DNA from: Desulfobacterales bacterium
Lineage (GTDB): Bacteria > Desulfobacterota > Desulfobacteria > Desulfobacterales > SpSt-501
NCBI GenBank assembly: GCA_030834695.1
Contig: JAUQXK010000085.1
Location: 1-58,927, forward strand
Reading direction: 5' to 3'
DNA: 58,927 bases
The stretch's first letter is position 1. The number at the start of each line of letters is the position of its first letter. Under the pieces are notes generated by a model that was given only the letters and a program-made list of their open reading frames with translations, was not told where the DNA came from and made no database searches. Below, in pieces: positions 35,649 to 55,231 of this stretch. The position numbers and the translations under genes were made by a program.

Positions 35649-36266
35649 ATGACCATGCCCACCACCGTATATCTGGTCCGGCACGGCAATGTTCACAACC
35701 CCAACCGAATTCTCTACGGCCGCCTGCCGCGCTTCCGGCTGAGCCAGAGAGGGATGGAAGAGGCACGCGCGGCCGGCCGGTTTCTGAACGGCGCTCCGAT
35801 CGCTGCCCTATATTGTAGCCCGCTGCTGCGGGCCCGGCAGACGGCTCAAGAAATTCGTGCGCTCCTCCCGGATCTCACCCTGCGGCAGTCGCCTCACCTG
35901 CTTGAAGTGCTCAACCCCTTCGAGGGCCGGCCGAGCGCGGAGGTCGACGCCCGGCACGGGGACGTCTACACCGGCGTCGGCCCGCCGTATGAGCAGCCGT
36001 CGGATATCGTCGCGCGCACACTGGAATTTTTCCAGCTGGCCCGCGGCCGCCACGCCGGCAAGAAAGTGGTGGCGGTCACCCACGGGGACGTGATCGTTTT
36101 CGCCTTGCTCTGGGCGCGCGGGATGGCCCTTACCCCCCAGAACAAGTCCGGCCTGCATGCGCTCGGTTTCACCGGCGGCTACCCCGCCACCGGCTCGCTC
36201 ACCGCATTCATTTTTCGAACGGACTCTCCCCGTGAGCTGCCGGAAGTGCATTATTTCAGGCCCTGA
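35649..36266 (+). CDS. Histidine phosphatase superfamily protein
   Basis: Protein of 205 aa with the catalytic signature VYLVRHGNV at the N-terminus, the second Arg in SPLLRARQTA and the second His in VVAVTHGDVI. The family includes phosphoglycerate mutase-like and alpha-ribazole phosphatases; the substrate is unknown. ATG 35649 is preceded by AAGGGAT. Confidence 0.85.
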   Translation: MTMPTTVYLVRHGNVHNPNRILYGRLPRFRLSQRGMEEARAAGRFLNGAPIAALYCSPLLRARQTAQEIRALLPDLTLRQSPHLLEVLNPFEGRPSAEVDARHGDVYTGVGPPYEQPSDIVARTLEFFQLARGRHAGKKVVAVTHGDVIVFALLWARGMALTPQNKSGLHALGFTGGYPATGSLTAFIFRTDSPRELPEVHYFRP

Positions 36267-36308: not shown

Positions 36309-36656
36309 ATGAGAACGACGCTGGCCAGCGACGATGATGCGGCTTCGCTTTTGGAGCGTATCCGCAGAAAGCGAAACGTCATGTTTAAAGCAGCGGTCAA
36401 TGAGGCATTGCGCCGCGGGTTGAGGGGCATGGCGGCCCCGCCGCCCCGGCTCGCGAAGCCTTATCAGACGCGAGCGGTGTCTCTCGGGCGCTGTTTGGCG
36501 GATAATCTCGATGACATCTCCGAAGTCCTCGCTATATCGGAAGGAGAGGGCCTCCGGCGATCTTGGTTGACGCCAACCTGCTCATCTACAACCTGCCGAG
36601 CGACATGCCGAAGTATTAAAATCCATTTTATTAGCCGCCCCGAAATGGCGACGTAA
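36309..36656 (+). CDS. RHH (CopG/VapB-like) antitoxin with run-on C-terminus
   Basis: The first 75-80 residues look like an RHH antitoxin of a VapBC pair (MRTTLASDDDAASLLERIRR, FKAAVNEALRRGLRGMAAPP, TRAVSLGRCL ... ISEVLAISEGEG). After about residue 80 the frame runs on into what was the toxin gene in another phase, giving an unrelated Ser/Thr-rich tail. A small deletion at the junction probably removed its stop. It may still repress its operator. Confidence 0.65.
   Translation: MRTTLASDDDAASLLERIRRKRNVMFKAAVNEALRRGLRGMAAPPPRLAKPYQTRAVSLGRCLADNLDDISEVLAISEGEGLRRSWLTPTCSSTTCRATCRSIKIHFISRPEMAT
36560..36619 (+). pseudogene. VapC PIN-domain toxin remnant (19 codons)
   Basis: This frame reads ILVDANLLIYNLPSDMPKY and stops. 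ILVDANLLIY is the start of PIN toxins, including the first catalytic Asp. The rest of the domain is absent, and repeat copy D begins about 10 bp further on. The normal ATG before ILVD is also missing. Confidence 0.7.
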
Positions 36657-36809: not shown

Positions 36810-37505
36810 CTATGGTGGGGCCTCGACGCGGTGAAACCCCTCCGCCAGCCCGAAGGACTCCCCGGCCGCCATCTCCCGGCAGCGCTGGCGCAGCCACTCG
36901 ACCGGGTCCCCCCGGTTGAACTCGCGGACCTGGCTCGCATGACAGCGCAGGGCGGCGATCTTGAGATCGAAAGTCTGCGTGATATCGGAGCGGAAGTTAA
37001 TGTCTTCGGTCCCCCAGAAGTAAAGCTCCCGCACTTTATGGGGCATAAGCCCCTCCGCCAGAAGATCCGCGTAGGCCAGGCGGTCGCGGGCGAAGGGGAA
37101 GACGGCATCCAGTACCACCTGGCCGATGATGCGGTGATCGCGGTGCCAGATGTAGCGGCGGTAGGGGTCTGAGGTCATAACGATTTCGGGACGAAAACCC
37201 CGAATCATGCGCACGATGAGTTTGCGAAACTCAGCGGTGTCCTCCAGCCCTTGGTCCGGCTGGCGCAAGAAGGTGACGCGCTGAACTCCGAGGGCTCGCG
37301 CCGCGGCGCGCTGCTCCTCTTCACGGATTTCGACAAGCATCTCCGGGGTCAGGGTGGGGTCGGTGGTCCCCTTTTCACCGCTGGTGCAGATGAGATAGGC
37401 CGCTTGCCGGCCCTCCCGTATCCACTTGGCCACTGTTCCGGCGGCACCGAATTCGGCGTCGTCCGGGTGAGCGGCAATCACTAAAATATCCACTGGAGTC
37501 GTCAC
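36810..37505 (-). CDS. PIG-L family deacetylase (MshB/BshB-like)
   Basis: Protein of 231 aa. The metal site is in VIAAHPDDAEFGAAGT, with a further His in WHRDHRIIG. Members remove the N-acetyl group from GlcNAc conjugates, as in mycothiol (MshB) and bacillithiol (BshB) synthesis. GTG 37505 follows GGAG at 7-bp spacing, 13 bp after the GT4 gene. It is the last gene of the leftward unit. The GT4/PIG-L pair suggests a GlcNAc-X then GlcN-X sequence (inference). Confidence 0.87.
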   Translation of the reverse strand: MTTPVDILVIAAHPDDAEFGAAGTVAKWIREGRQAAYLICTSGEKGTTDPTLTPEMLVEIREEEQRAAARALGVQRVTFLRQPDQGLEDTAEFRKLIVRMIRGFRPEIVMTSDPYRRYIWHRDHRIIGQVVLDAVFPFARDRLAYADLLAEGLMPHKVRELYFWGTEDINFRSDITQTFDLKIAALRCHASQVREFNRGDPVEWLRQRCREMAAGESFGLAEGFHRVEAPP

Positions 37506-37518
37506 CGCGCTTCTCCGT

Positions 37519-38832
37519 TCACGCCGGCGGGGCCGCGCCGCAGCCGCAACAGGCCGGCCGCGCGGGTTTCGGATGAAACCCGGCTGCCGCTCTCGGGGCT
37601 GCGCCGGGGGCGCCGATCATGCTCTCGCTATATACCTTCAAAACATCGGTTGCCACCCGGGACCAATCGTAATCGGCCGCTGCGCGCCGAATCGATGCCG
37701 TGCCCGGCAGCCCCGCGGCCCGATCGCGCAGCAAGCCTTCGATCGCGGCCGCCAGGGAAGAGGGTCGAAGGTCTGGGGCCAGGCGACCGTTTCCAGGGTC
37801 CCGCAGGAGTTGCTCCATCGCTCCCACGCGGGTCGCCGCTACCGGCGTGCCGCAGGCCAGTGCTTCCAGGGCGACCATGCCGAAGCTCTCGTAAGACGAT
37901 GGAAGTGATAGAAGGTCGGCCGCGCTGTAGAAGAAGGGGAGTTCGCTCTGCTCGAGCCGGCCCTTGAAGGTAACGCGCCCGCCAATGCCGCAAGAACGGC
38001 TCAGTTCCATCATCCGCCGGCGCGCCCGATCGTGCTCACCATCCCCGCCGACGACGATCAAGCGCAGTTCGGAGATATGCCTCAAGCAAGCGACGGCCCG
38101 GATCAGCCGATCCAGGCCCTTTTCCGGCGCCAGGCGTCCGACGTAAAGAACGAGCTTTTCTTCCGAGGCCACCCCGATTTGCTTGCGGGCGACGGTCCGA
38201 TCCTTCGGCTGAAACCGATCCAGGTCCACGCCGCAAGGAATGACCGTGACCCGGTCTGCGTCGGCGTCGTAATGCCGGATGAGATGGTCCTTTTCACGGT
38301 CGGAGGTGACCACGATTCGGTCGCTGGCGGCAGCCAAGCCGCGTTCGGCGTCCATGCGGGCGTCCGATTCGGATTCGGGGCCGCACACCAGCTTTTTCAC
38401 GGCGGCCAAGGTGTGGAACGTCGTGAGGTGCAGGGCCCCCCACGCTTGACGGGCCCAGAGTCCGACCTGGCCGGAGAGCCAGTAATGGCTGTGGATCACA
38501 TCATACCTCGCGCCCTCCCGTTCCCGGAAGCGCTCCAGCGCGTGGAAGAATCGTGCAAGGTGAGGGTAGAGGGCGGTTTTGGGGGCGTCCCCACCCGGTC
38601 CAAGATCCAAGGGGACGAGGCGCACGTTTTCAGAAATCTGCAAAACGTCGCCGCATGCAAGGCCGTCGCCGGCGCGGGTGAAGATGTCCACGCGATGGCC
38701 GCGCAGGCCCATCTGCCGTGAGAGTTCACGGATGTAGACGCTCATTCCGCCCGTGTCCTGGGTGCCGAGCCGGCCCAGGGGGCTGGAGTGCACGCTGATC
38801 ATGGCGATGGAGTGCGGTAGTGAACGCAACAT
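37519..38832 (-). CDS. GT4 glycosyltransferase (MshA/BshA-like)
   Basis: Protein of 437 aa with a GT-B fold. The N-terminal donor/acceptor loop GGMSVYIRELSRQMGLRGHR resembles MshA and sucrose-phosphate synthase. The C-terminal domain has LYVGRLAPEKGLDRLI and the EX7E region SYESFGMVALEALACG. A Cys/Pro/Ala-rich tail (PARPACCGCGAAPPA) ends it. It likely transfers a hexosamine from a UDP-sugar. AGGAAG precedes ATG 38832. Its partner PIG-L gene lies directly downstream. The acceptor is unknown. Confidence 0.86.
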   Translation of the reverse strand: MLRSLPHSIAMISVHSSPLGRLGTQDTGGMSVYIRELSRQMGLRGHRVDIFTRAGDGLACGDVLQISENVRLVPLDLGPGGDAPKTALYPHLARFFHALERFREREGARYDVIHSHYWLSGQVGLWARQAWGALHLTTFHTLAAVKKLVCGPESESDARMDAERGLAAASDRIVVTSDREKDHLIRHYDADADRVTVIPCGVDLDRFQPKDRTVARKQIGVASEEKLVLYVGRLAPEKGLDRLIRAVACLRHISELRLIVVGGDGEHDRARRRMMELSRSCGIGGRVTFKGRLEQSELPFFYSAADLLSLPSSYESFGMVALEALACGTPVAATRVGAMEQLLRDPGNGRLAPDLRPSSLAAAIEGLLRDRAAGLPGTASIRRAAADYDWSRVATDVLKVYSESMIGAPGAAPRAAAGFHPKPARPACCGCGAAPPA

Positions 38833-38994
38833 GACTTCCTCAATTTCAAGTGATGATCCCGCGCTTAAACTTTTTGGATACTGGATGGGCGCTTCGCGCG
38901 GTCCAGGAAGTTCGATTAAAACAGAACCACGCGCTTCAGCCTTTTATCCACTATCCAGCATCCGGTACCCCGCATCGAGTACCAGGTATCGCTT

Positions 38995-40002
38995 TCACGC
39001 GCCGGAGAGGTCGATCCGGCACCGATAGATCGGCACCGGCTTGCCCCCCAGGTGGTGTTTGTAGGCTTCTTCTCCCTTGAGGAAATCGTATTTAGCAAGA
39101 CCGCGAGCAATGCCATCCCGAATGCTCAGGACTTTGCAAAGAATGCCGACACTCAAGTGGGACAGGTCCGCATCGTAGCCGCTGTTGTAAAGGTAGCGGG
39201 TACCGCCGAAATCGCAGCACCATACCGCGGCGGCCGGACGTCCGTCAACGGCCAGAAACCCGATCCGGGTTTCCGGCACATACTCCGCCAGCAATCGAAA
39301 ATAGCCTTCCATCCGGTCGTCCATGAAGGCGGCCTTGTCGGGGCGGTTCTGCCGGAAGAGCGCGAGAAAATCATTCAGCGCCGCGCGGATCGCCGGGGGC
39401 TCTTGCACCAGGCGGAATTCGGTCGCCGCATGGGTTTCCAGCCGCCTCAGCTTGCGCCGCACCTCGTGGCGCTGTTTGCCGGATAGGATGCGGAGGTAAT
39501 CCTCCCAGGCTGCGGGCAGATCCATCTCGAACAGAACGTCTTCCTCGGCTATGGAGACCGGGTATCCCCTTGCACGGGCCGCCGGGACCAGCTCCTGGAT
39601 GACCACCGAATCGGGCCTCAGCGGATTCAAATCCAGGCGACGAATGCCGGCGCCCCTCAAGTGATCCAAAAGCGCATCGCAGAATTCTCTCCGCCGGTCG
39701 GCGGTGCAGACCAGATCGAGGTGGTCGCAGACATCGGCATCGCCGATGAGCCGGGCTGTTCTCTCTTCCACGCACAGCGGTGCGATGCCGATCACCCTTT
39801 CGGCCGTCCGCAACGAGCGGATCCAGAGAGAAGCCCGTGGCGCGAAAACCTCCTGCCAGGCGCGCATCCAGCCCGGCAGCACAAAGGGCGATTCAAACCT
39901 CAGATGGCTTCCGGCCGCTATCTGACAGCCGGAAACGCTCTCGAAGGTGTCCGCCGCGAAGCCATCCGCGCGGACGGCTCCGGCGGTTTCGGTATCGCCC
40001 AT
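38995..40002 (-). CDS. GNAT/Fem-like acyltransferase (BioF2/CelD type)
   Basis: Protein of 335 aa in the Acetyltransf_6 group (CelD, FemAB-related). Its core has ILSGKQRHEVRRKLRRLE, a long linker and the second GNAT half (IGFLAVDGRPAAAVWCCDFG, YLYNSGYDADLSHLSVGILC). Relatives acylate sugars or, in the Fem branch, add amino acids from aminoacyl-tRNA. ATG 40002 is preceded by AGGA and lies 11 bp after the S51-CysRS gene. 162 bp with degenerate ccagcatcc-type repeats separate it from the GT4 gene. Confidence 0.8.
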   Translation of the reverse strand: MGDTETAGAVRADGFAADTFESVSGCQIAAGSHLRFESPFVLPGWMRAWQEVFAPRASLWIRSLRTAERVIGIAPLCVEERTARLIGDADVCDHLDLVCTADRRREFCDALLDHLRGAGIRRLDLNPLRPDSVVIQELVPAARARGYPVSIAEEDVLFEMDLPAAWEDYLRILSGKQRHEVRRKLRRLETHAATEFRLVQEPPAIRAALNDFLALFRQNRPDKAAFMDDRMEGYFRLLAEYVPETRIGFLAVDGRPAAAVWCCDFGGTRYLYNSGYDADLSHLSVGILCKVLSIRDGIARGLAKYDFLKGEEAYKHHLGGKPVPIYRCRIDLSGA

Positions 40003-40013
40003 GTCCCCGATCC

Positions 40014-41264
40014 TCAATTGATCCGCCAGCGGGCGCCCTCGTTGGTGTCTTCGACGATGACACCGGCACGTTGCAGGCAGTCGCGCAGCGCGTCCGCCTC
40101 CTCCCAGCGTTTCCTCCGGCGCATGTCGTCGCGCAGCCGCAGCAGCTCTTCCACGAGAGGACTCAGGCATTCGTCGGTGGAGCCGGGGCCGGTCGACAAC
40201 GACGATCCCAACATGACCAGCCATTCGCGCAGCATCTCCCGGGCTTGGGAGATAGCCTCCTCGCCCTCCAGATTGCGGGCCGAGGCCCAGATGACGCGGT
40301 CGAGTTCCAGGATGGCGGCCGACATCCCTTCGGCATTGCGGCTTTCCTGTGCGGTCTGAAACCCCGATTCGAGGACATGGATGCTATCCCAAAAGGAGTC
40401 CGGCCGGCTTTCCGCCGACGCCGCTGCGGTTCCTTCGGGGGGCGCCGAAACGGTTCGCGGAGACGGGGGCTGCCAGTTGCCTTTGAAGACATCCAGCGAG
40501 ACAACGGTGTTTTTCGCGAGGGCCAGCTCCGACCCGCCGCGGAGCAGCGTGGCGCCGCCGATGCCGCGGATGCAGGCTTCGTTGCGGGAGAGGTCTATAA
40601 TGCAAGCCGTGTGCTCGTCCATCCCGAGAACATGGGCGTCTTCCGGCAGCAGAGCCGCGAGGGACCGAAAACGGGACTCTCCCATGAAGCAGAAGCGGGT
40701 GTCATGGGTGCCGCCCTCGGCATTGTTCCAATGCGGCATCACCACGAGGTTCAGGCCGAAGCGCCCCAGCAGGTTGAGCCCTTGAACCCAGCGCAGTTCC
40801 TCGCCGACCTTGTATATTTCATAGACCGGAAGGGTGCGGACACCGACGGTCAGGGCGGCGGCGCTGGCAGCCACCAGGCAGGCGCCTTCCTCGATCCGGC
40901 GGGCGAGAATGTCGGGAATCGGAGTGCCCTCCCACTGACGCACGGCGTAAGTCGGGCTGCCGGGGCCGACCAGGACGAAATCGGCCTGCCGCAGGGTGAG
41001 AAACGCTTTTTCGGATTCCAGCGCGCTGAGAGCGTCTTTCGATTTGAAAGCGGCCACGGCCATGGGATGGCCGACTTTATGATGGAAGTACTCGACGGCC
41101 TTGGCGGAGATCTGATCGGCGTTGAGCTGAAAACCGGCCGGGGTGTCTAGGAACACGGCCCTTGCGCCCGTGCCAAGGCGAGCCAGCAGCTCCTTATGGA
41201 CTTCCACCATGGTTGCAGTGAGCTCGCCCGAACCCATGAGGACGATGGTGCCCTTCGCGGACAT
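40014..41264 (-). CDS. S51/glutamine-amidotransferase-like protein fused to a CysRS C-terminal domain
   Basis: Protein of 416 aa. About 1-235 is an S51 (cyanophycinase-like) fold: IVLMGSGELTATMVE, VGPGSPTYAVRQWEG and a nucleophile-elbow-like VAASAAALTVG that retains a Ser. A linker follows. The last 55 residues (VEELLRLRDDMRRRKRWEEA, DALRDCLQRAGVIVEDTNEG, ending ARWRI) are the C-terminal domain of cysteinyl-tRNA synthetase. The catalytic HIGH domain is absent. ATG 41264 follows GGAA. A tRNA-Cys or cysteine-related role is inference. Confidence 0.8.
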   Translation of the reverse strand: MSAKGTIVLMGSGELTATMVEVHKELLARLGTGARAVFLDTPAGFQLNADQISAKAVEYFHHKVGHPMAVAAFKSKDALSALESEKAFLTLRQADFVLVGPGSPTYAVRQWEGTPIPDILARRIEEGACLVAASAAALTVGVRTLPVYEIYKVGEELRWVQGLNLLGRFGLNLVVMPHWNNAEGGTHDTRFCFMGESRFRSLAALLPEDAHVLGMDEHTACIIDLSRNEACIRGIGGATLLRGGSELALAKNTVVSLDVFKGNWQPPSPRTVSAPPEGTAAASAESRPDSFWDSIHVLESGFQTAQESRNAEGMSAAILELDRVIWASARNLEGEEAISQAREMLREWLVMLGSSLSTGPGSTDECLSPLVEELLRLRDDMRRRKRWEEADALRDCLQRAGVIVEDTNEGARWRIN

Positions 41265-41312
41265 ACTTTCCGTCAACACCTACGTTCATTAAAAAGATAA
41301 TGGCAGAATTTA

Positions 41313-41430
41313 TTCGTCCCGAAATAGTACCGTCATGCCGGACTTGATCCGGCATCCAGAAAGCTACTGGATTCCGGCTTTCGCCGGAATGACGAGGTAG
41401 GGCTTATTGTGAGACGTCTAATAATTCTTC
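41313..41430. repeat. Dispersed palindromic repeat, copy E
   Basis: cgaaatagtaccgtcatgcc then gacttgatccggcatccaga, with a right palindrome attccggctttcgccggaat and a divergent right end. It lies between the two S51 genes and overlaps the last codons of the gene that ends at 41418. Confidence 0.72.
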
Positions 41431-42125
41431 ACTTCCACCGGCAGCAAGAGTTGTTCCCCATGGCCGAACACCGTCTGGCTCTCGGGCTTGTAGACGGTGA
41501 CAACCCCCTTACCGTAGACGGTCCATTCGCCGGCCGGGCCGTCGTTCAGCAGCCCGGTTTCCTCGTCGACTCCGATGAGGCTCGCGCCCGGCAGAAGCCG
41601 GCTGAGTCGAGGTGCCCAATTTTTTCCGAACCGATTGTGGTGCGGCAGTACGCAGCAGCCCTGCAGGAAGTTCAGGCCGGGCAGTGCCTGCCCGGATCCC
41701 TGGTCGAAATAGTGCTCGCACAAAACCATCGCGCCCGCACTGCTGCCGCCGATGACCGCGCCGGCGCGGTGGGCGATCCGCATCGCTTCCCGGACCCGGC
41801 TGTCCGCAAGAGTCTCGGCCAGGTAGCGGGTGAAGCCTCCGAGCATAAAGACGAACTTGGCGGATTCCAGTTCCCTGGCCAGGTCCGGCTGGTCCGCTGA
41901 AGCGCGATCGATGACGGGAACCGACCGGACGTTATCCGCTCCCAGGCTTTGAAACCAGGCGACGCCGTTTGCCCCGGCCTGCCGGTCGTTGTTGTCCGGA
42001 GCGGCCGCGGCTGGAATGACGCGGATCGGGGCCTTGCGCCCGCCGGCGGCCTCGATGGCGCGTTTATCGGCCGCTGCCATCCCGATCATGAACTCATTGC
42101 CGCCTTCGAGCAGCACAAATCCCAT
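41418..42125 (-). CDS. S51-family peptidase, cyanophycinase-like
   Basis: Protein of 235 aa with the nucleophile elbow AVIGGSSAGAMVLCEHY (Ser in GXSAGA), FMLGGFTRYLAET and a later LIGVDEETGLL acidic region. Cyanophycinases and dipeptidase E cleave at Asp or beta-Asp bonds. No signal peptide. GGTGG precedes ATG 42125. Repeat copy E covers its 3' end. It is probably the first gene of the leftward cluster, although a repeat separates it from the next gene. Confidence 0.83.
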   Translation of the reverse strand: MGFVLLEGGNEFMIGMAAADKRAIEAAGGRKAPIRVIPAAAAPDNNDRQAGANGVAWFQSLGADNVRSVPVIDRASADQPDLARELESAKFVFMLGGFTRYLAETLADSRVREAMRIAHRAGAVIGGSSAGAMVLCEHYFDQGSGQALPGLNFLQGCCVLPHHNRFGKNWAPRLSRLLPGASLIGVDEETGLLNDGPAGEWTVYGKGVVTVYKPESQTVFGHGEQLLLPVEVKNY

Positions 42126-42285: not shown

Positions 42286-43992
42286 ATGAAGATCCCGTCC
42301 CGGAAATTTATCCTCTCTTTTTGCGCTTTCGTAATGGGGCTGATGCTGGTCGCCGCGGCCCTCAATGTCCAAGCGGCATCCTTCCGCCCTGAAAAGAGCA
42401 CAGACGGCGCAGTGATCGCCACCAGCAAGTTCGCGTCCGAAGCCGGCATGCAGGTGCTGCGTGCCGGCGGAAATGCGATCGACGCCGCGGCCTGCGTGGG
42501 TTATACGATGGCCGTCACCCACCCGGTCGCCGGGAATCTCGGCGGAGGGGGCTTCGCCATCATCCGCACCGCCGACGGCAAGATCTACAGCCTCGATTTC
42601 CGGGAAATGGCACCGGGTCAGGCGACCCGCACCATGTACCTGGACGCTGCCGGCAACGTGGTGCCGAAGCTCAGCCTGGACGGATACCTGGCCGCCGGGG
42701 TGCCCGGCACCGTGGCGGGGATGAGCGCCATGCTCGATCGCTTCGGCACGAAAAAGCTCTCCGAGCTGATGCAGCCGGCCATCAAATACGCTGAAAAGGG
42801 ATTTGTCGTCAGCGCCCGCAACGCCGAGACATTCAAGGAGCATGAGCCGCGCCTTTCCAAGTACGGCTCCAGCCGCAGGTACTTCCTCAAACCGGACGGC
42901 GCTACTTACAAAGAGGGCGACCTGCTGGTGCAGAAGGACCTGGCCAAGACCCTGCGGGCCATCGCCGAGCGCGGCCCCAAGGCTTTCTACGAAGGGAGCA
43001 TCGCGGATCTGATCGAGAAGGACATGAAGGCCAACGGCGGCATCATCACCAAAGACGATCTGAAGCGCTACAAGCCGATCTGGCGCGAGCCGGTCCGAGG
43101 GAGCTACCGCGGCTACGAGATCGTTTCCATGGGGCCGCCCAGCTCGGGCGGAACCCACATCATCCAGATGTTGAACATTCTGGAGGGCTTTGACCTCAAG
43201 GCCATGGGACCCAACTCGGCCGCGGCGGTGAACGTGATGGCCGAGGCCATGCGCTTCGCCTATGCCGACCGCAGCGAGTACATGGGCGATCCGGATTTCG
43301 TGAAGGTGCCCGTGGACATTCTGGCCTCCAAAGATTACGCCGAGCGCCTGCGGAAGCGCATCGAGTCCGGCAAGGCCACCCCATCGGACCAGGTGCGGCC
43401 GGGCACATCCTTCAAGAAGGAGGGCAGCAACACGACCCATTACTCGGTGGTGGACCGCTTCGGCAACGCCGTCTCGATCACCTACACCATCAACGACTAT
43501 TACGGCAGCGCCGCCGCCGTGAACGGCGCCGGGTTTCTGTTGAATAACGAAATGGACGATTTCGCAGCCAAGCCGGGCGTGCCCAACCTCTACGGGTTGC
43601 TCGGCGGCGACGCGAACGCCGTGGAGCCTTCCAAACGGCCGCTCTCCTCCATGTCGCCCACCATCGTCCTCAAGGATGGCCAGGTGGTCATGCTGCTGGG
43701 CAGCCCCGGCGGCGCACGGATCATTACGACGGTGATGCAGGTCATATTGAACGTGATCGACCACGGCATGACCATCCGCGAGGCGGTGGACGCTCCACGG
43801 GTGCACCTGCAGTGGATCCCCGACGAGCTGCGCATCGAGAAGAACGGCCTGAGCGCCGACACGGCCGCGAAGCTATCTGCGATGGGCTACAAGATCCAGG
43901 TGCGGGCCAACATGGGCGACGTGAACGCCGTCATGGTGGACCCCAAGACCAAGGTCTTCTTGATTGCGTCCGACCCGCGCAACGAGTTCTGA
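42286..43992 (+). CDS. ggt: Gamma-glutamyltranspeptidase, periplasmic
   Basis: Protein of 568 aa with a signal peptide (FILSFCAFVMGLMLVAAALN ... VQA). The autoprocessing site and nucleophile Thr lie in GSNTTHYSVVDRFGNAV, so a large and a small subunit form after cleavage. GNLGGGGF and the substrate loop PLSSMSPTIVLKDG are conserved. It cleaves gamma-glutamyl bonds of glutathione and similar compounds in the periplasm, releasing glutamate. CAAAGGAGG precedes the ATG. It lies just upstream of a TAXI-TRAP transporter. Confidence 0.95.
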   Translation: MKIPSRKFILSFCAFVMGLMLVAAALNVQAASFRPEKSTDGAVIATSKFASEAGMQVLRAGGNAIDAAACVGYTMAVTHPVAGNLGGGGFAIIRTADGKIYSLDFREMAPGQATRTMYLDAAGNVVPKLSLDGYLAAGVPGTVAGMSAMLDRFGTKKLSELMQPAIKYAEKGFVVSARNAETFKEHEPRLSKYGSSRRYFLKPDGATYKEGDLLVQKDLAKTLRAIAERGPKAFYEGSIADLIEKDMKANGGIITKDDLKRYKPIWREPVRGSYRGYEIVSMGPPSSGGTHIIQMLNILEGFDLKAMGPNSAAAVNVMAEAMRFAYADRSEYMGDPDFVKVPVDILASKDYAERLRKRIESGKATPSDQVRPGTSFKKEGSNTTHYSVVDRFGNAVSITYTINDYYGSAAAVNGAGFLLNNEMDDFAAKPGVPNLYGLLGGDANAVEPSKRPLSSMSPTIVLKDGQVVMLLGSPGGARIITTVMQVILNVIDHGMTIREAVDAPRVHLQWIPDELRIEKNGLSADTAAKLSAMGYKIQVRANMGDVNAVMVDPKTKVFLIASDPRNEF

Positions 43993-44137: not shown

Positions 44138-45085
44138 ATGAAGAAACTGTTCGGTGCGTGCATGGTTTTTCTGTTTGTATTCGGTGCGGTGGCGACCATC
44201 CAGGCCGCCGACAACCTGGTGCTCGCCACCGGCGGCACCGCCGGGACCTACTACCCCTTCGGCGGCGCCATGGCCAAGATCTGGAACTCCAAGATCAAGG
44301 ATATGAACGTGACCGCCCAGACCAGCGGCGCCTCGGGCGAGAACGTGCGCCTGATCAACAAGAAAGAGGTCGAACTCGCCCTGGTCCAGAGCGACACCCT
44401 GGATTTCGCCTTCAACGCCAAGGAAGCCTTCAAGGAGCCCCTGAAGGCCATGAGTGCCATCGCCGTCCTTTATCCGGAGGTCGTGCAGGTGGTGGTTGCG
44501 GCCGACGGCCCGATCAAGTCTTTCGCGGATCTGAAGGGCAAAAAAGTGGGCGTGGGCGCGCCGGGTAGCGGCACCGAGGCCAACTACCGGCAGCTGATGG
44601 ACGCTTACGGCATGAAAAAAGAGGACGTCAACGGCCAGTACCTGTCCTTCTCCGAGAGCGCCGAGGCATTTAAGGACAAGCACATCGACGCCTTTGTCGT
44701 GACCGGCGCGGTTCCCACCTCGGCCATCATGGATGTCGCCACTCAAAACGCCATCCGCATTCTGCCGATCGCGGACGACATCGCCGCGAAGCTGACCCAG
44801 AAATATCCCTTCCTGGCCGCGGTGAAGGTCCCGGCCAACAGCTACAAAGGCCAGACCGCGGATGTGCCCACCGTGGCGGTGAATGCGGTTCTGATCGCCG
44901 GCAGCCAGCTCAAGGACGACATGGTCTACAACCTCACCAAAGCGCTGTTCGACAACCAGGCCGATCTGGCCGCCGCCCATGCCAAAGGCAAGGAGCTGAA
45001 CGCTCAGTTCGCAGTGAAGGGCGTGTCCATCCCCTACCACCCGGGGGCGGTGAAGTACTACAAGGAGAAAGGGCTGATGAAGTAG
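44138..45085 (+). CDS. TAXI-family TRAP solute-binding protein
   Basis: Protein of 315 aa with a signal peptide (KKLFGACMVFLFVFGAVATI ... QAADN). The TAXI signature LATGGTAGTYYPFGGAMAKI, QSDTLDFAF and VGVGAPGSGTEANYRQLM are present. It binds a carboxylate, commonly glutamate or 2-oxoacids in this family, and delivers it to the fused permease two genes on. CAGGAGG precedes the ATG. Confidence 0.93.
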   Translation: MKKLFGACMVFLFVFGAVATIQAADNLVLATGGTAGTYYPFGGAMAKIWNSKIKDMNVTAQTSGASGENVRLINKKEVELALVQSDTLDFAFNAKEAFKEPLKAMSAIAVLYPEVVQVVVAADGPIKSFADLKGKKVGVGAPGSGTEANYRQLMDAYGMKKEDVNGQYLSFSESAEAFKDKHIDAFVVTGAVPTSAIMDVATQNAIRILPIADDIAAKLTQKYPFLAAVKVPANSYKGQTADVPTVAVNAVLIAGSQLKDDMVYNLTKALFDNQADLAAAHAKGKELNAQFAVKGVSIPYHPGAVKYYKEKGLMK

Positions 45086-45108
45086 AAAGCCGCCCGGAGC
45101 GGCTTTCT
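45084..45108 (+). terminator. Hairpin directly after the TAXI gene
   Basis: The arms AGAAAGCCGC and GCGGCTTTCT pair perfectly (10 bp) around CCGGA, beginning at the stop codon. No full T-run follows, so it more likely protects the binding-protein mRNA or attenuates permease expression. Confidence 0.6.
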
Positions 45109-45145
45109 ATATGAAGAAGTTCTTAGGCCAGAAGAATAAGGACCT

Positions 45146-45192
45146 TGCGACCCTTCCGGTAAGCTTTTGCGATTGACGCTGGAAGGGTCGCA
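45146..45192 (+). promoter_or_regulatory. Second inverted repeat in the TAXI-DUF1850 gap
   Basis: TGCGACCCTTCC and GGAAGGGTCGCA are perfect 12-bp arms around 23 nt, ending 15 bp before the DUF1850 start. It may be an mRNA hairpin limiting downstream translation or an operator. Confidence 0.5.
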
Positions 45193-45207
45193 CGCATCTT
45201 AAATCAA

Positions 45208-45711
45208 ATGCACCGTCGATGGATCGCAGGCTTGGTAGCCGCCGGCGCTGGGGTTGCCGGGCTTTTGCTCTGGCCGTTTATCCCCGCGTTTGAATTAATC
45301 GACGGACGCAGCGGCCGTGTCGCCTTTTGTGCCCGCGTCCGGGTCGGCGAAGAGTTTGTGCTGTCGTTTGTCCATTCTGTGAACAAGCGGCCCGTTTATG
45401 ACACGCTGCGGGCGGAGGCCGATCACCTGGTCATTGTCGGGTCCCGGTTCGATTCCTTCGGCGCCGGCATGCCGGAGGCTTCGACGCCGGAAGGCACGCT
45501 GGCCATTGCCAAAGACGGCTGGCTGGAATGGACCATCAACCGTCCCGTCCCGGAAATCACCATCCGCGTGGGTTGGGTGGCCGAACACACCCTGCATATC
45601 AAGGATCGGAAGATCCGGCTGGCTGATCTGGCAGAACCGGGGAAACCATTAACCATGCGCGTTCGCGAACTTCGAATGTTCGACCTCCTCAAAGGCAGGT
45701 GCATCCCATGA
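45208..45711 (+). CDS. DUF1850 protein of a TAXI-TRAP operon
   Basis: Protein of 167 aa with an N-terminal hydrophobic helix (IAGLVAAGAGVAGLLLWPF) and an exported beta-rich domain (FVLSFVHSVNKRPVYDTLRA). DUF1850 genes commonly sit between TAXI binding proteins and their fused permease; the function is unknown. Its stop overlaps the permease start as ATGA. Confidence 0.85.
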   Translation: MHRRWIAGLVAAGAGVAGLLLWPFIPAFELIDGRSGRVAFCARVRVGEEFVLSFVHSVNKRPVYDTLRAEADHLVIVGSRFDSFGAGMPEASTPEGTLAIAKDGWLEWTINRPVPEITIRVGWVAEHTLHIKDRKIRLADLAEPGKPLTMRVRELRMFDLLKGRCIP

Positions 45712-47714
45712 GCGAAAAAGAAAAAGATCCGGTTCAGCCCGGTGTTCTCACCACCAAGATGGAAGGGGTCGAGGCCGTCTCCAAGGAAGAGATCGAAGAA
45801 ATCCTAAAGAAGGTCGACAAGGAGGCTGCCGCCCGCAAGCTGACCGGCACGCCGCATTGGATCGTCTATGTCATCGGCGTTTCATGGTCGATCTTCCAGG
45901 TGTACACGGCGGCCTTCGGGTTGCTTCCTGCCCAGCTGCAACGATCCATCCATCTGGCGTATGCGTTCGTATTGACCTACCTTCTGTTCCCGGCCCGTGC
46001 CGGGAATGACGATAACCGCCTGCACTGGTACAACTGGGCGCTGGCTATTTTCGCCGGCTACATCGGGTTGTACATGGCCCTCAATTACGTGCGCATCATG
46101 GAGGCCGGTGGGGATTATTCCCGCATGGATTATCTTGTCGCCGGCTGCGGCATCCTGCTGACGCTGGAGGCGTCGCGGCGGGTGGTGGGGCTGCCGATCG
46201 TCTGCCTGGCGGCGTTTTTTCTGGTCTTTTCCTATTTCGGATCATACTTCCCCGGATTCATGTCGCACCGCGGGTATTCCCTCGAGCGGATCGCATCCCA
46301 CATGTTTCTGACCACCGAGGGCATCCTGGGTATTCCTCTAGGGGTGGCGGCGACGTTCATCTACCTGTTCATCCTGTTCGGCTCCTTCCGTGAAAAATCC
46401 GGGCTGGGGCAGCTCTTCATCGATATTTCCAACGCCGTGGCCGGCTGGGCCTCCGGCGGCCCGGCCAAAATGGCGGTCGTCACCAGCGCTTTGGAGGGAA
46501 CGGTTTCCGGGAGCTCGGTCGCCAACACGGTGGAATCCGGCAGCCTCACCATCCCCATGATGAAGCGCCTCGGCTACCGGCCCGAGTTCGCCGCGGCGGT
46601 GGAGGCGTCATCTTCCACCGGCGGGCAGATCATGCCGCCCATCATGGGTGCTGCGGCGTTCATCATGGCCGAGTTTCTCAACGTGCCTTACCTCGACATC
46701 GCCAAGGCGGCGGCCATCCCGGCCTGTCTCTATTTCTTCGGCGTGTTCATGGAGGTGCACTTCGAGGCCAAGCGCTGCAATCTGAGGGGCCTGAGCCGCG
46801 ACGAGCTTCCCAGGTTTGCGGATGTCATGAAGGAGCGGGGACATCTCTTCGTTCCCCTGTTTGCGATCATCATATTCCTTTCGATCGGGTTCACCCCGCT
46901 ATACGCCGCCCTCATGGGCCTGGTGACCTGCATCATTGCGGGTGCCTTGAAGGTGTCCACCCGCATGAGCCCCCGGCAAATAGCCGACGGGTTCGAGCTC
47001 GGTGCCCGCAACGCCGTCGGCGTCGCTCTGGCCTGCGCTTCGGCCGGCATTATCATCGGCGCGATCACCCTGACCGGGCTGGGGCTCAAGCTGGGTAACG
47101 GACTGGTGGAGCTCGCCGGCGGCAATCTTCTACTGACGCTTATCTTCACCATGATCACTTCACTCATTCTCGGCATGGGTGTGCCGACCACGGCCAACTA
47201 CATCATCACCTCCACCATCGCTGCGCCGGCCCTGATCCAACTGGGCGTGCACCCGCTGGCGGCGCACATGTTCGTTTTCTATTTTGGGATCGTGGCCGAC
47301 ATTACGCCGCCGGTCGCTCTGGCCGCTTACGCCGGCGCGGGTATCGCCAAATCCAACGCCTTCTGGACGGGGGTCACCGCCACCAAGCTCGCCATCGGGG
47401 CGTTTCTCACGCCCTACATTTTCGTCTACAACACGTCCATGCTCTGGATCAATACGACGTGGTACGCGATGATTCAGACGCTGGTCACGTCTTGTGCGGG
47501 CATGACGGCGATCGGTGCGGCCATGATCGGTTATTTCGTGGCACCGATGAACTGGATCGAGCGGATCTTGTTCATCGCGGGGGGCCTGTTGCTCGTGGAC
47601 CCGGGCACGATCACAGATATCATGGGGATCGGCTTGTTGGCCGCGTGCGTGGCCAATCAGTACCGCAAGAAAAGAGCAGGGGCGGTCAGCACGGCTACCA
47701 CTGCGGATGCGTGA
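45708..47714 (+). CDS. TRAP transporter fused permease (DctQM type)
   Basis: Protein of 668 aa with about 16 or more helices. The first four form the DctQ-like part, and the rest the DctM-like channel with repeated GXXXTG-like loops (GTVSGSSVANTVESGSLTIP, GGQIMPPIMGAAAFIMAEFL, GMGVPTTANYIITSTIAAPA). ATG 45708 follows CAGGTG and overlaps the DUF1850 stop. It imports the TAXI-bound solute driven by an ion gradient. Confidence 0.94.
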   Translation: MSEKEKDPVQPGVLTTKMEGVEAVSKEEIEEILKKVDKEAAARKLTGTPHWIVYVIGVSWSIFQVYTAAFGLLPAQLQRSIHLAYAFVLTYLLFPARAGNDDNRLHWYNWALAIFAGYIGLYMALNYVRIMEAGGDYSRMDYLVAGCGILLTLEASRRVVGLPIVCLAAFFLVFSYFGSYFPGFMSHRGYSLERIASHMFLTTEGILGIPLGVAATFIYLFILFGSFREKSGLGQLFIDISNAVAGWASGGPAKMAVVTSALEGTVSGSSVANTVESGSLTIPMMKRLGYRPEFAAAVEASSSTGGQIMPPIMGAAAFIMAEFLNVPYLDIAKAAAIPACLYFFGVFMEVHFEAKRCNLRGLSRDELPRFADVMKERGHLFVPLFAIIIFLSIGFTPLYAALMGLVTCIIAGALKVSTRMSPRQIADGFELGARNAVGVALACASAGIIIGAITLTGLGLKLGNGLVELAGGNLLLTLIFTMITSLILGMGVPTTANYIITSTIAAPALIQLGVHPLAAHMFVFYFGIVADITPPVALAAYAGAGIAKSNAFWTGVTATKLAIGAFLTPYIFVYNTSMLWINTTWYAMIQTLVTSCAGMTAIGAAMIGYFVAPMNWIERILFIAGGLLLVDPGTITDIMGIGLLAACVANQYRKKRAGAVSTATTADA

Positions 47715-52434: not shown

Positions 52435-53544
52435 ATGACACCCTCGAGCATATTTGAAATCGCGGTGCTTCCCGGAGACGGGATCGGCGTGGAAGTGACG
52501 TCGGCCGCCGTGGAGGTGCTCGATACCCTGTGCGCCGAAATCGGCGGGATCCGGTTCAACTGGCAACATTACCCCGGCGGGGCGCAGACCTATCGCGACA
52601 CAGGTGTGGCGCTGGCCGACGAGACCCTGAAGGCATTGGAGAACGCCGATGCAATCCTGTTCGGCGCCATGGGCCTGCCGGACATCCGTTACCCGGACGG
52701 TACCGAGATTGCCCCTCAGCTGGACATCCGGGTGAGCCTGGATCTGTATGCCGGGGTCCGGCCGATCCGCGCCTTTGCGGGGCTGCCGTGCCCGTTATCC
52801 GACCCGCGCGCCGCCGGCATTGATTTCGTCCTCGTCCGCGAGCAGACCGAGGGGCTCTTTTACGCGCGGGGCCGCGGGCAGGTCATCGCCGACCAGGAGG
52901 CGCAGGATACGATGCGGATCACGCGCAAGGGCTCTGAGCGGGTTTTCGACTTTGCCCTGCGGCTGGCCGAGCGGCGAAAAGAACGCGGCCGGCCGGGGCG
53001 GGTCACCTGCGTCGACAAATCCAATGTGTTCGCATCGATGGCTTTCTTCCGCCGGATCTTCGACGAGCAGGCACGGCGGTTTCCCGCCATTGCGGCGGAT
53101 CACTGCTACATCGACGCTATGGCATTAAATCTGATTCGCCAGCCGTGGGCTTACGATGTCATCGTGACCGAGAACATGTTCGGCGACATTTTGTCGGACT
53201 TGGGTGCCGGCCTGGTCGGTGGCATGGGCATGGCACCCTCCGGCGACATCGGAGATCGGCATGCGCTCTTTCAGCCCGCGCACGGGTCGGCGCCGGACAT
53301 CGCCGGGACCGGCAAGGCCAACCCCACGGCCATGTTCCTGTCGGCCGCGATGATGCTGGAGTGGTTCGCGGAGCGCCACGGGCAGACCGCCTGCCGCGAA
53401 GCCGCCGACGTGCTGGGCCGAGCGATTGAGCGGACGTTTCAGCAAGGACGCGTCAAGCCATTTGAATTCGGCGGGTCGAGCGGCACCGCCGCGATCACCC
53501 GGGCGGTCATAGATGCGTTCCGGGTGAATGCCCGCAAGCGTTGA
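52435..53544 (+). CDS. Isocitrate/isopropylmalate-type decarboxylating dehydrogenase
   Basis: Protein of 369 aa in the beta-decarboxylating dehydrogenase family, closest in look to tartrate dehydrogenase/TtuC. Motifs are [21 protein letters not shown], the substrate-Arg region [13 protein letters not shown], the catalytic Tyr of FYARGRG, KSNV and [20 protein letters not shown], then the cofactor loop [20 protein letters not shown]. It would oxidise and decarboxylate a 2-hydroxyacid derived from the imported substrate. ATG 52435 has only a weak site. Confidence 0.88.
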
Positions 53545-53617
53545 GAGCCGTACGGACGTATCGAGGAACAAGGACATGTTGGCACCAACCCCATCAAACC
53601 CCAAGAAGGAGGGAGTC

Positions 53618-54631
53618 ATGAACCGAAAAACGCTGTGGGCCAAGGTTTTCTGCATCCTGGTGGCGGTCATGGTTTTCGGAGCGCTGAATGTCGGCGCCCA
53701 GACCGTGCTGAAATTCAGCCACACCGACCAGCAGCAGGGCGCGCGCCAGGCCGCTGCTCTTTTCTTTGCGAAAAAGGTCGAGGAGTACACCAATGGTCGT
53801 TACAAGGTGCAGGTGTACTGCTGCAGCCAGCTCGGCAACGACCCCAAGAACATCGAACAGTTGGCCCTGGGCGGTATCGATTTCACCGTTTCGAGCACCG
53901 GCTCCTACGCGCCCCATGTGGACACCCTGAACCTCACGATGCTCCCCTTCCTCGTGGAAACCTACGACCAGGGCTGGAAGCTCTACGACGAGTCCAAGTG
54001 GCTCCAGGCCCAGTTCGACAAGGCCCCCGCCAAGGGGTTCCGTTTCCTGTCCACCTTTGAGGCAGGGTTCCGCTGCATGACCACTCGCGACCCGTTGAAC
54101 ACCCCGGCCGACGCCAAGGGCAAGAAGCTGCGCACGTTTCCGAACGAGATGATGCGTTGGACGCTCGAGGACATCGGCTTCAGCGTCCAGATCATGCCGC
54201 TGCCCGAGGTGTACATGGCGATCCAGCAGGGGGTCGTCAGCGGCCAGGAAAACCCGATCGACACCATCTACTCCAACAAGTTCTACGAAGTGGCGCCCAA
54301 CGTGACCCTGACCCAGCATGTCTACAGCCCGATCCCGCTCGCCATTTCCGAAAAGACCTGGCAGAAGCTCTCCGAGGCCGACCGCCAGGCCGTCACCAAG
54401 GCGGCCAAGGAAGCGGCCGCATTCAGCCGTCAGGAGATCCGCGCCAACGACGACCGGCAGCTGAAGGAGATGGCCGACAAGGGCGCCAAGATCGCCAAGC
54501 CCAACCTGGAACCGTTCCGCCAGGCGGTGCAGCCGGCCTATGCCAAGGCGCGTGAGAAGTTCGGCGCCGAGAACGTCAACGCCATCTTGAAGGATGCGGA
54601 AGCGGTGCGCCAGGCGCTTCCGGCCAAGTAA
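53618..54631 (+). CDS. TRAP transporter solute-binding protein (DctP family)
   Basis: Protein of 337 aa with a signal peptide (AKVFCILVAVMVFGALNVGA-Q). DctP features are LKFSHTDQQQGARQAAALFF, GGIDFTVSSTGSYAP, the carboxylate-binding Arg region KLRTFPNEMMRWTLEDIG and VSGQENPIDTIYSNKFYEVA. It captures a sugar acid or other carboxylate. GAAGGAGGGAG precedes ATG 53618. Confidence 0.93.
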   Translation: MNRKTLWAKVFCILVAVMVFGALNVGAQTVLKFSHTDQQQGARQAAALFFAKKVEEYTNGRYKVQVYCCSQLGNDPKNIEQLALGGIDFTVSSTGSYAPHVDTLNLTMLPFLVETYDQGWKLYDESKWLQAQFDKAPAKGFRFLSTFEAGFRCMTTRDPLNTPADAKGKKLRTFPNEMMRWTLEDIGFSVQIMPLPEVYMAIQQGVVSGQENPIDTIYSNKFYEVAPNVTLTQHVYSPIPLAISEKTWQKLSEADRQAVTKAAKEAAAFSRQEIRANDDRQLKEMADKGAKIAKPNLEPFRQAVQPAYAKAREKFGAENVNAILKDAEAVRQALPAK

Positions 54632-54658
54632 TTATCTCGATCAACGGGTTGCATACCG

Positions 54659-54694
54659 GCAAGACGCCGGTCTTCAACGGGTCCGGCGTCTTGC
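54659..54694 (+). terminator. 12-bp hairpin between dctP and dctQ
   Basis: GCAAGACGCCGG and CCGGCGTCTTGC are perfect arms around a 12-nt loop; TTC and the dctQ ribosome site follow. It probably stabilises the binding-protein mRNA or partly attenuates permease transcription. Confidence 0.6.
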
Positions 54695-54709
54695 TTCAAG
54701 GAGTTTTCT

Positions 54710-55228
54710 ATGAATGCCCGACTCTTGCCGGCCGGGCCGCCGGCGCCGCCTGCGATCCGCTGGCTGGGTGTGGTGGTCGATTACACGCTGGTTTCGATGG
54801 GTGCGGTCATGACCGTTCTCGTCTTCTGCAACGTGCTCATGCACCTGTTCCACCAGGACATCGCCTGGACCACTGAACTGTGCGAGTTCATGATGGTCTG
54901 GGTCACGTTTCTGGGGGGGGCCTCCGCGGCGCGCCGCGGGGCGCACATGACGATCACCGAGTTCATCGACAAGCTGGCCGGGAAATCCCGCTTCAAGGCG
55001 GATGCGGTCGTTCAGATGCTGTGCCTGGCGGTGCTTTGCCTGCTGGTCCGGTACGGGGTTGGCATCGTCATGGCCAACTGGGGCAACATTCTGACCGTTC
55101 TCGACTGGCCCATGGCGTTTCAGTATCTCGCGTTGCCGGTCGGCTCGACGGCCTCCCTGGTGTTCGTCGGCTATGACCTCATTCAAATCCTGCGCGGCAA
55201 GCCCCGCAAGGAACGGTATGGAGATTGA
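54710..55228 (+). CDS. TRAP transporter small permease (DctQ)
   Basis: Protein of 172 aa with four membrane helices, the DctQ fold (VDYTLVSMGAVMTVLVFCNV, ELCEFMMVWVTFLGGASAAR, MTITEFIDKL). AAGGAG precedes ATG 54710. It pairs with the large permease 3 bp downstream. Confidence 0.9.
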   Translation: MNARLLPAGPPAPPAIRWLGVVVDYTLVSMGAVMTVLVFCNVLMHLFHQDIAWTTELCEFMMVWVTFLGGASAARRGAHMTITEFIDKLAGKSRFKADAVVQMLCLAVLCLLVRYGVGIVMANWGNILTVLDWPMAFQYLALPVGSTASLVFVGYDLIQILRGKPRKERYGD

Positions 55229-55231
55229 GCG

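Follow-up and report, generated by a model that had tools for sequence, protein, structure and literature searches.

In this study, we describe a conserved and widespread gene set, found in a Desulfobacterales bacterium, that has no MshC and whose first steps resemble those of mycothiol synthesis. The cluster is located on contig JAUQXK010000085.1 (GenBank assembly GCA_030834695.1), positions 1 to 58,927 of which were analyzed and are here called the window. It encodes a PIG-L deacetylase, a family 4 glycosyltransferase (GT4) that resembles MshA, a Fem-like acyltransferase, an S51-fold protein fused to the C-terminal part of cysteinyl-tRNA synthetase (CysRS), hereafter the fusion, and a second S51 protein. 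Based on sequence homology, predicted folds, residue conservation, gene linkage and co-occurrence, we hypothesize that the cluster yields a mycothiol-like thiol, with the MshC step replaced by cysteine transfer from Cys-tRNA, a reading to which we assign a probability of about 0.5. Glucosamine-inositol (GlcN-inositol) is a likely product of the cluster, and we infer the substrates, the cysteine as the added residue, the tRNA as its donor, the order of the steps and the delivery of the cysteine via the Fem-like enzyme with help from the fusion.

Predicted steps toward a GlcN-inositol core

By far the best NCBIfam model for the GT4 was MshA (TIGR03449) with 336.5 bits, short of the curated cut-off of 462.5 bits, whereas the next model scored 127 bits and BshA 100 bits. 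The MshA model was also best by far for the homologs in Desulfacinum and in one Bacillota locus. Among solved structures, the closest are 3c48 (247 bits), which bears the entry name "predicted glycosyltransferases" and which we take to be the Corynebacterium MshA, and 6kih Tll1590 (235 bits), presumably a sucrose-phosphate synthase. Judged by sequence alone, the GT4 may therefore use another phosphorylated acceptor. Ten cluster GT4s retain the residues that PMC12182360 reports for UDP binding by MshA, with either Leu or Met at Leu320, as well as Gly23 and His133 of the inositol-phosphate site. Tyr110, Thr134 and Arg154, which together with Lys78 we take to be MshA ligands, are likewise kept in all ten. 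For the PIG-L protein, which is predicted to unmask the glucosamine amine, the BshB1 model scored best (108 bits, cut-off 182.5) and the MshB model 51.7 bits (cut-off 224).

The initial annotation had proposed a GlcN-X core, and the joint occurrence of the MshA-like GT4 and inositol-1-phosphate synthase suggests that X is probably inositol. Among 197 genomes sampled evenly across the phylum, 114 had the synthase, including 26 of the 26 with the MshA-like GT4 (Fisher p 2e-7), 33 of the 33 with the Fem-like protein (p 2e-9) and 23 of the 23 with the fusion (p 1.5e-6). Such p-values take no account of shared ancestry, and values were computed at the genus level as well, where the synthase was present in 19 of 19 MshA-like genera (p 2e-5). 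Among 58 genomes nearer to the window, it was found in 10 of the 13 with the fusion as compared to 15 of the 45 without it (p 0.009). The window's own genome holds one match over the Pfam cut-off, outside the cluster. The sole NCBIfam model that matched the two cluster-linked synthases scanned was TIGR03450 (mycothiol_INO1), with 400 and 429 bits (cut-off 638). Given this match and the co-occurrence, an early product is likely to be N-acetylglucosamine-inositol (GlcNAc-inositol), after a phosphatase has acted.

In the proposed pathway, inositol-1-phosphate synthase, which is encoded in or beside the cluster in some relatives, would supply inositol phosphate, to which the MshA-like GT4 would attach GlcNAc. 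A phosphatase of the histidine or HAD type, the gene for which adjoins the cluster in some members of the clade, would then strip the phosphate, and deacetylation by the PIG-L protein would yield GlcN-inositol. These phosphatases are possible candidates for acting on GlcNAc-inositol-phosphate; the histidine phosphatase matched the cobC model first (58–65 bits) and the MSMEG_4193 family second (54 bits).

The genes could also belong to an ordinary polysaccharide or envelope sugar-modification cluster, a type of cluster that often encodes GT4, PIG-L, PF13480 and Gfo/Idh proteins. We regard this as highly improbable, since no flippase, polymerase or polyprenyl-phosphate transferase was recognized among the recurring neighbor families, some of which were family-scanned, since the inositol synthase accompanies the MshA-like GT4 in all 26 sampled genomes that have this GT4, and since a CysRS module would have no role there.

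A Fem-like protein and an S51-CysRS fusion

The Fem-like character that the initial annotation had given to the acyltransferase was borne out by an AlphaFold2 model (39 sequences in the alignment, pLDDT 94.8), the predicted fold of which is that of the aminoacyl-tRNA-dependent transferases. The top matches were FemA (Z 22.0), Sbb17 (21.5), FemX (21.5) and Sba18 with streptothrisamine (21.1), followed by FemX-RNA complexes at Z of about 20 (20.2 for 4ii9), by L-PGS and MprF at 16.7–19.2, and by 2hqy, a protein whose function is not known, at 17.3. The root-mean-square deviation (rmsd) was 3.5–4.2 for this whole block. Tandem GNATs that use acetyl-CoA reached Z 14.9 at most, mostly with an rmsd above 5.5, and leucyl/phenylalanyl-tRNA-protein transferase Z 13.9 over less than half of the length. 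A role as MshD is disfavored by the fold, with Z 13.8 and 13.1 to MshD as compared to about 17–22 to the aminoacyl-tRNA transferases.

A sequence search of the Fem-like family against solved structures gave zero matches at E 1, and the link to these enzymes therefore rests on the fold and on Pfam, where PF13480 matched all 39 homologs, FemAB_like 32, FemAB 7, LPG_synthase_C 3 and Acetyltransf_1 1. Identity to FemX, Orf11 of the BD-12 pathway and Sbb17/Sba18 is 11–15%, with Z 20–22 for the shared double-GNAT fold. PMC12945691 describes Orf11 as an enzyme that depends on Gly-tRNA and has streptothrisamine as its substrate, and it names a positively charged helix and Lys305 as features of FemX. 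The Fem-like protein also has a conserved, positively charged helix (174–190), in which Arg177, His178, Arg182, Lys183 and Arg185 are present in 39 of 39 homologs, and near the end of the chain a Tyr-Lys pair (Tyr313 in 39 and Lys314 in 38 of 39) that is a candidate for the counterpart of Lys305, paired by motif only. A fold match by itself is no proof of tRNA use; we propose that the protein is an aminoacyl-tRNA-dependent transferase with Cys-tRNA as the donor and GlcN-inositol as the acceptor, which would set it apart from the known members of the group.

Alternatively, the core may be the same GlcN-inositol while the residue that the Fem-like protein attaches is an acyl group or an amino acid other than cysteine, giving a non-thiol product such as an antibiotic-like compound, an osmolyte or a lipid-linked conjugate. 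The fold matches to Sbb17/Sba18, solved with streptothrisamine, and to the MprF lipid aminoacyltransferases fit this idea, and the amino acid specificity is not readable from the model. We nevertheless consider it unlikely, because the CysRS module keeps the tRNA-Cys contacts described below, because some relatives have GloB-like, MST-like and MshD-like genes in the neighborhood of the cluster genes, and because BshC was absent from the 58 genomes and the glutamate-cysteine ligase GCS2 was found in 2 of 23 fusion genomes.

In the structure model of the fusion (53 sequences, pLDDT 86.8), residues 3–274 form an S51 fold, with Z 26.5 to 6nqc, 24 to cyanophycinase and 16–22 to dipeptidase E. Ser139, Glu154 and His183, candidate hydrolase residues that may form a catalytic triad, are present in 53 of 53 homologs. 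The fusion differs from these peptidases in that it falls below the cyanophycinase cut-off (16.9 bits as compared to 126.6), has a PHWNNAEGGTHDTRFC-type motif and carries the CysRS tail. Residues 298–421 align with residues 333–461 of 1u0b (Z 8.5), with an rmsd of 16.3 and thus no single rigid superposition, and a family-profile search matched positions 292–415 to four CysRS chains (E 7e-12 to 2e-8). The CysRS C-terminal domain reported in the initial annotation is hence present, but the fused part extends beyond the 51 residues of the Pfam domain: about 120 residues correspond to residues 337–460 of the E. coli CysRS.

In the E. coli CysRS complex, G34 of tRNA-Cys is contacted by Arg423, Arg427, Trp432 and Asp436, according to PMC12684709. 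At the corresponding positions of the 53 homologs, R383 and D396 are invariant, R387 is present in 50 and replaced by Lys in 3, and W392 is Trp in 45, Phe in 4 and Tyr in 4, so the G34-contacting residues named in that source are kept. The fusion has no aminoacylation domain, the place of which is taken by the S51 fold, and the charged tRNA would therefore come from the ordinary CysRS that the genome encodes elsewhere (G000:C65, 442 bits). In the pathway that we favor, the Fem-like protein would transfer cysteine from Cys-tRNA(Cys), charged by this enzyme, to the glucosamine amine. The fusion would hold tRNA-Cys via its anticodon module and then either present this tRNA in its charged form to the Fem-like enzyme or remove wrong products by means of its hydrolase part.

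Another scenario is that the fusion is itself the ligase, with Ser139 forming a cysteinyl acyl-enzyme from Cys-tRNA for transfer to GlcN-X, and that the Fem-like protein is an acetyltransferase that stands in for MshD. The invariant Ser139, Glu154 and His183 and the kept tRNA-contact residues are compatible with this, and cyclodipeptide synthases provide a precedent for an aminoacyl-enzyme on serine. We think it distinctly improbable, given that the nearest folds of the fusion are peptidases, that five genomes have the MshA-like and Fem-like proteins with no detected fusion, that the Fem-like fold is far nearer to the aminoacyl-tRNA transferases than to MshD, and that separate MshD-like genes occur among the genes of two genomes (G220 and G266).

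Linkage and co-occurrence across genomes

The five leftward genes named in the initial annotation were all confirmed in the window by the list of open reading frames and by Pfam and NCBIfam scans (Table 1). They are separated by 13, 162, 11 and 138 bases, and the Fem-like gene likely starts at the ATG at 40002, with GAGGA upstream.

Table 1. Genes of the cluster, a module of the fusion and the two flanking genes in the window.
Feature	Position	Strand	Evidence
PIG-L de-N-acetylase (MshB/BshB-like)	36810..37505	-	PF02585, E 1.9e-32; linked homologs at 35/80 loci
MshA-like GT4 glycosyltransferase	37519..38832	-	TIGR03449, 336.5 bits
Fem-like double-GNAT protein (Acetyltransf_6/"CelD")	38995..40002	-	PF13480, E 2e-25
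S51-fold protein fused to CysRS C-terminal module	40014..41279	-	PF03575, E 1.8e-6; PF23493 (CysS_C), E 6e-10
CysRS-derived helical and anticodon-binding module (fusion residues 298–421)	40017..40388	-	1u0b match and CysRS profile
Second S51 hydrolase (cyanophycinase/PepE-like), occasional member	41418..42125	-	PF03575, E 4e-14; 23/80 loci
Histidine phosphatase, convergent neighbor	35649..36266	+	PF00300; ATG start picked by eye
Gamma-glutamyltransferase (ggt), divergent neighbor outside the conserved unit	42286..43992	+	TIGR00066, 640 bits; 0/80 loci

To examine the linkage, contigs of GTDB genomes were scanned with the fusion alignment, and the best 80 of 590 confirmed loci were analyzed, so the counts favor close relatives. 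The counts are based on tblastn with preset bit thresholds, with histidine-phosphatase sequences of another type (L075, L079, L094) excluded from the queries, and 34 of the 80 loci have less than 5.5 kb downstream. The loci are mostly from the Desulfobacterota, including the isolate Desulfacinum infernum DSM 9756 (L118), and also from metagenome-assembled genomes labeled Nitrospiraceae/Nitrospirae and Syntrophomonadaceae/Bacillota, and from a few Dormibacterota and Actinomycetota. Linked genes for the Fem-like protein were found at 50 loci (34 of the 46 that extend 5.5 kb or more downstream), for the MshA-like GT4 at 46 (35), for PIG-L at 35 (31) and for the second S51 protein at 23 (17). Further linked genes encode a ThuA-Gfo/Idh protein (26 loci, 19 of the 46), a Gfo/Idh protein (26, 21), inositol-1-phosphate synthase (14, 12), a histidine phosphatase (11, 11), a HAD phosphatase (10, 8) and a GloB-like metallo-beta-lactamase-fold hydrolase (9, 7). 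Of the 131 Fem-like, MshA-like and PIG-L matches, 128 share the strand of the fusion, and the genes typically run from the fusion through (two Gfo/Idh), Fem-like and MshA-like to PIG-L. At 27 of the 80 loci none of these three was linked, and many such contigs end nearby. Thus, of the five genes suspected to be co-conserved, the fusion and the Fem-like, MshA-like and PIG-L genes stay together, but the second S51 gene is an occasional member.

The fusion was identified in 13 of the 58 nearer genomes, in G033 in a shorter and diverged form, and other matches were mostly to the CysRS tail. On 12 contigs of these relatives (L038–L049, the window's excluded), some of which are the same contigs as in the 80-locus set so that the counts are not independent, the Fem-like gene was found on 11, the MshA-like on 10, PIG-L on 7 and the histidine phosphatase on 6. 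Several of these contigs end early, L041 and L046 have room yet no linked PIG-L, and the Fem-like, MshA-like and PIG-L genes are all missing from L049, which is the most divergent. The divergent ggt gene had been thought to fit the thiol theme, but it was found at none of the 80 loci, the 46 with room downstream included, and on none of the 12 contigs, some of which end before its expected place; we therefore reject it as a component of the system.

Side observations were made at several of these places. One protein of the Gfo/Idh pair (L061:2445-4097, L073:3077-4111) has an N-terminal ThuA-like part; the pair is missing from the window cluster and perhaps serves in inositol or sugar oxidation. 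At six deltaproteobacteria-type loci (L098, L107, L108, L109, L112, L119), one protein family follows the unlinked fusion, a member of which (L107:11347-12087) belongs to the PNP/UDP phosphorylase family, PF01048. In the window itself, TAXI-type and DctP/DctM TRAP transporter genes are located at 44138–47714 and 53528–56521, and four of the relatives' contigs (L039, L040, L043, L044) have a TAXI gene next to the cluster with no ggt between. A frame resembling a VapB-type antitoxin, apparently with a broken PIN-like frame after it, was seen by eye at 36309–36656.

The co-occurrence analysis suggested in the initial annotation showed that the fusion, the Fem-like and the MshA-like proteins associate strongly, whether or not their genes are linked. 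In the 197-genome sample, the fusion was found in 25 genomes, of which 23 were counted; G081 and G230 matched the S51 part only, although the G081 protein nevertheless carries CysS_C. The Fem-like protein was found in 40 genomes at E 1e-20 (33 over 200 bits) and the MshA-like in 26 at E 1e-60. The fusion and the MshA-like protein occur together in 21 genomes (3.0 expected, p 1.6e-21), and the MshA-like and Fem-like proteins in 25 (4.4 expected, p 1e-23). At the genus level, by hand count, the fusion is present in 15 and the MshA-like protein in 19 of 143 genera, with 14 shared (p 2e-14). The association persists in the absence of linkage, as in several genomes of family f72, where the fusion sits on another contig; at L143, L144 and L146 the genes for the metallo-beta-lactamase-fold hydrolase, the Fem-like and the MshA-like proteins lie in a row.

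We also checked 25 selected fusion genomes. They represent 22 of the 27 loci at which no partner was linked, together with L065, L072 and L118, and several of these genomes are also in the 197-genome sample and so are not independent of it. The Fem-like protein was present in 18 and the MshA-like in 18, the two sets not being identical. Nine of the genomes with an unlinked fusion are labeled Bacillota; seven of them have a Fem-like protein with more than 350 bits, with a fragment in an eighth, and the same seven have the MshA-like protein. At three of the Bacillota loci (L155, L158, L161) the order is Fem-like, MshA-like, PIG-L, a GloB-like gene on the opposite strand and inositol-1-phosphate synthase, with one extra frame each within this row at L158 and L161. 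In the Dormibacterota/Actinomycetota-type set (L128–L130), the Fem-like protein was found in none and the MshA-like in two of three. In clade f80, the gene for inositol-1-phosphate synthase is adjoined by a Fem-like gene and by a GT4 that has diverged further (L150:4520-7798; L149:7028-10321), and in its member G081 the S51-CysS_C protein lies elsewhere (L148); this arrangement is possibly a second pathway subtype.

Yet another explanation is that the fusion is an accessory hydrolase that is dispensable for synthesis, such as a deacylase that edits tRNA-Cys or an Mca-like amidase that recycles thiol conjugates. It has a hydrolase fold with invariant Ser, Glu and His, it was undetected in 5 of the 26 MshA-like genomes, and it occurs with neither the Fem-like nor the MshA-like protein in 5 of the 25 checked genomes. 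Its position upstream of the other genes and on the same strand at most linked loci, as well as its very tight co-occurrence with the MshA-like protein, argue against such a role, which we consider fairly improbable.

Thiol genes and implications

The absence of MshC and BshC from the locus, noted in the initial annotation, extends to all 58 nearer genomes, the window's own included. BshC (PF10079) was found in none, while a control search was positive in 3 of 14 genomes, including Bacillus subtilis, and no MshC match exceeded the cut-off of 485 bits, the highest score being 319 bits. The proteins of the own genome that match the MshC model best are the ordinary CysRS and a CysK-CysRS fusion of 765 residues (L032:559-2856, G000:C115:70064-72361), in which the HIGH and KMSKS motifs seem to be degenerate on visual inspection. 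By hand count, CysRS-like matches in frames of 759–839 residues occur in 46 of the 58 genomes, mostly with lower scores in the window's genus. We do not favor the CysK-CysRS protein as a stand-in for MshC, because such frames, of which only the own one was read and found to hold CysK, occur both with and without the cluster.

Could a standard BshC or glutathione synthesis account for all of the thiol? For BshC the answer is given above. For glutathione, the search covered the GCS2 type of glutamate-cysteine ligase (PF04107), which was not found in the own genome and occurs in 2 of 23 fusion genomes as compared to 32 of 197 overall, a depletion that is not significant (p 0.38).

Some neighbors also point to a thiol. 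The GloB-like hydrolase recurs in or beside the genes, and the hydroxyacylglutathione hydrolase model gave 77–86 bits in the three scanned (cut-off 200.8). G220 encodes a DinB protein whose sole match is the mycothiol transferase MST_Rv0443 (108.7 bits, cut-off 170) and whose gene is separated from the Fem-like gene by about 1 kb with one small frame. On the opposite strand, between the MshA-like and PIG-L genes, the same genome encodes a tandem GNAT for which MshD is the best model (103.6 bits, cut-off 163), and G266 has one that is 43% identical to it between the Fem-like and PIG-L genes, also on the opposite strand, with MshD again the best model (77 bits). In 168 partly overlapping loci, MshD-like genes were seen in 3 (L140 and L163, both below the cut-off, and a 120-residue tblastn match at the end of L070) and a mycothiol transferase-like gene in 1. 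No MshD was recognized in the window cluster, to which the search within the own genome was confined. These rare neighbors matter because a separate candidate for MshD leaves MshC as the step without an enzyme.

Several observations weigh against the proposed tRNA-dependent route to a mycothiol-like thiol. Every score to a mycothiol equivalog model is below its cut-off, Lys85 of the GT4 is replaced in 2 of the 10 cluster GT4s, Lys78 is kept in 8 of the 10 (the exceptions being L040 and L044), and Asn25 of MshA is Ser in all ten. The Fem-like fold is typical of the broad family PF13480, which includes proteins annotated as acetyltransferases, and a dedicated tRNA-Cys gene adjoining the cluster, which we rejected as a component, was found at none of 55 cluster loci. 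Five genomes (G074, G085, G089, G111, G220) have the MshA-like and Fem-like proteins with no fusion detected, and the five checked fusion genomes that lack both at the thresholds used are those of L055, L058, L107, L121 and L128. Inositol-1-phosphate synthase is missing from three (G002, G003, G008) of the 13 nearer genomes that have the fusion, the two kinds of Gfo/Idh genes within a third of the loci are unaccounted for, and the depletion of GCS2 falls short of significance, as mentioned above.

As in the mycothiol pathway of the Actinobacteria (Ino1, MshA–D), the route would draw on an inositol synthase, an MshA-like GT4 and a PIG-L protein, and some relatives share the rare MshD-like and mycothiol transferase-like neighbors. 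The cluster differs in having the Fem-like protein and the fusion where MshC would be expected, and in that its hosts are Desulfobacterota and lineages labeled Nitrospirota and Bacillota rather than Actinobacteria. It shares a GT4 and a PIG-L protein, the latter closest to BshB1 although below the cut-off, with the bacillithiol pathway (BshA, BshB, BshC), from which it differs in the lack of BshC and in a GT4 far closer to MshA than to BshA. A genome survey places mshA–D in the Actinobacteria only (PMC6282198). No published non-actinobacterial mycothiol route or tRNA-dependent thiol was found in the literature, the subscription part of which was mostly outside the search. To our knowledge, the identity of the thiol in anaerobes without known glutathione or bacillithiol genes is an open question.

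That several anaerobic lineages (Desulfobacterota, Nitrospirota-labeled and Bacillota) make a mycothiol-like thiol in a tRNA-dependent manner, with the fusion capturing Cys-tRNA(Cys) for the Fem-like transferase, is a tentative proposal that we place somewhat short of even odds. It is open to direct test, as the isolate D. infernum carries the operon. If true, mycothiol-like chemistry would be far more widespread than thought, and one step of it would have been taken over by a different chemistry, using tRNA instead of an ATP-using ligase. We know of no low-molecular-weight thiol drawn from charged tRNA before, and this would be the first. A central redox cofactor would then compete with the ribosome for Cys-tRNA, coupling the redox buffer of the cell to translation.

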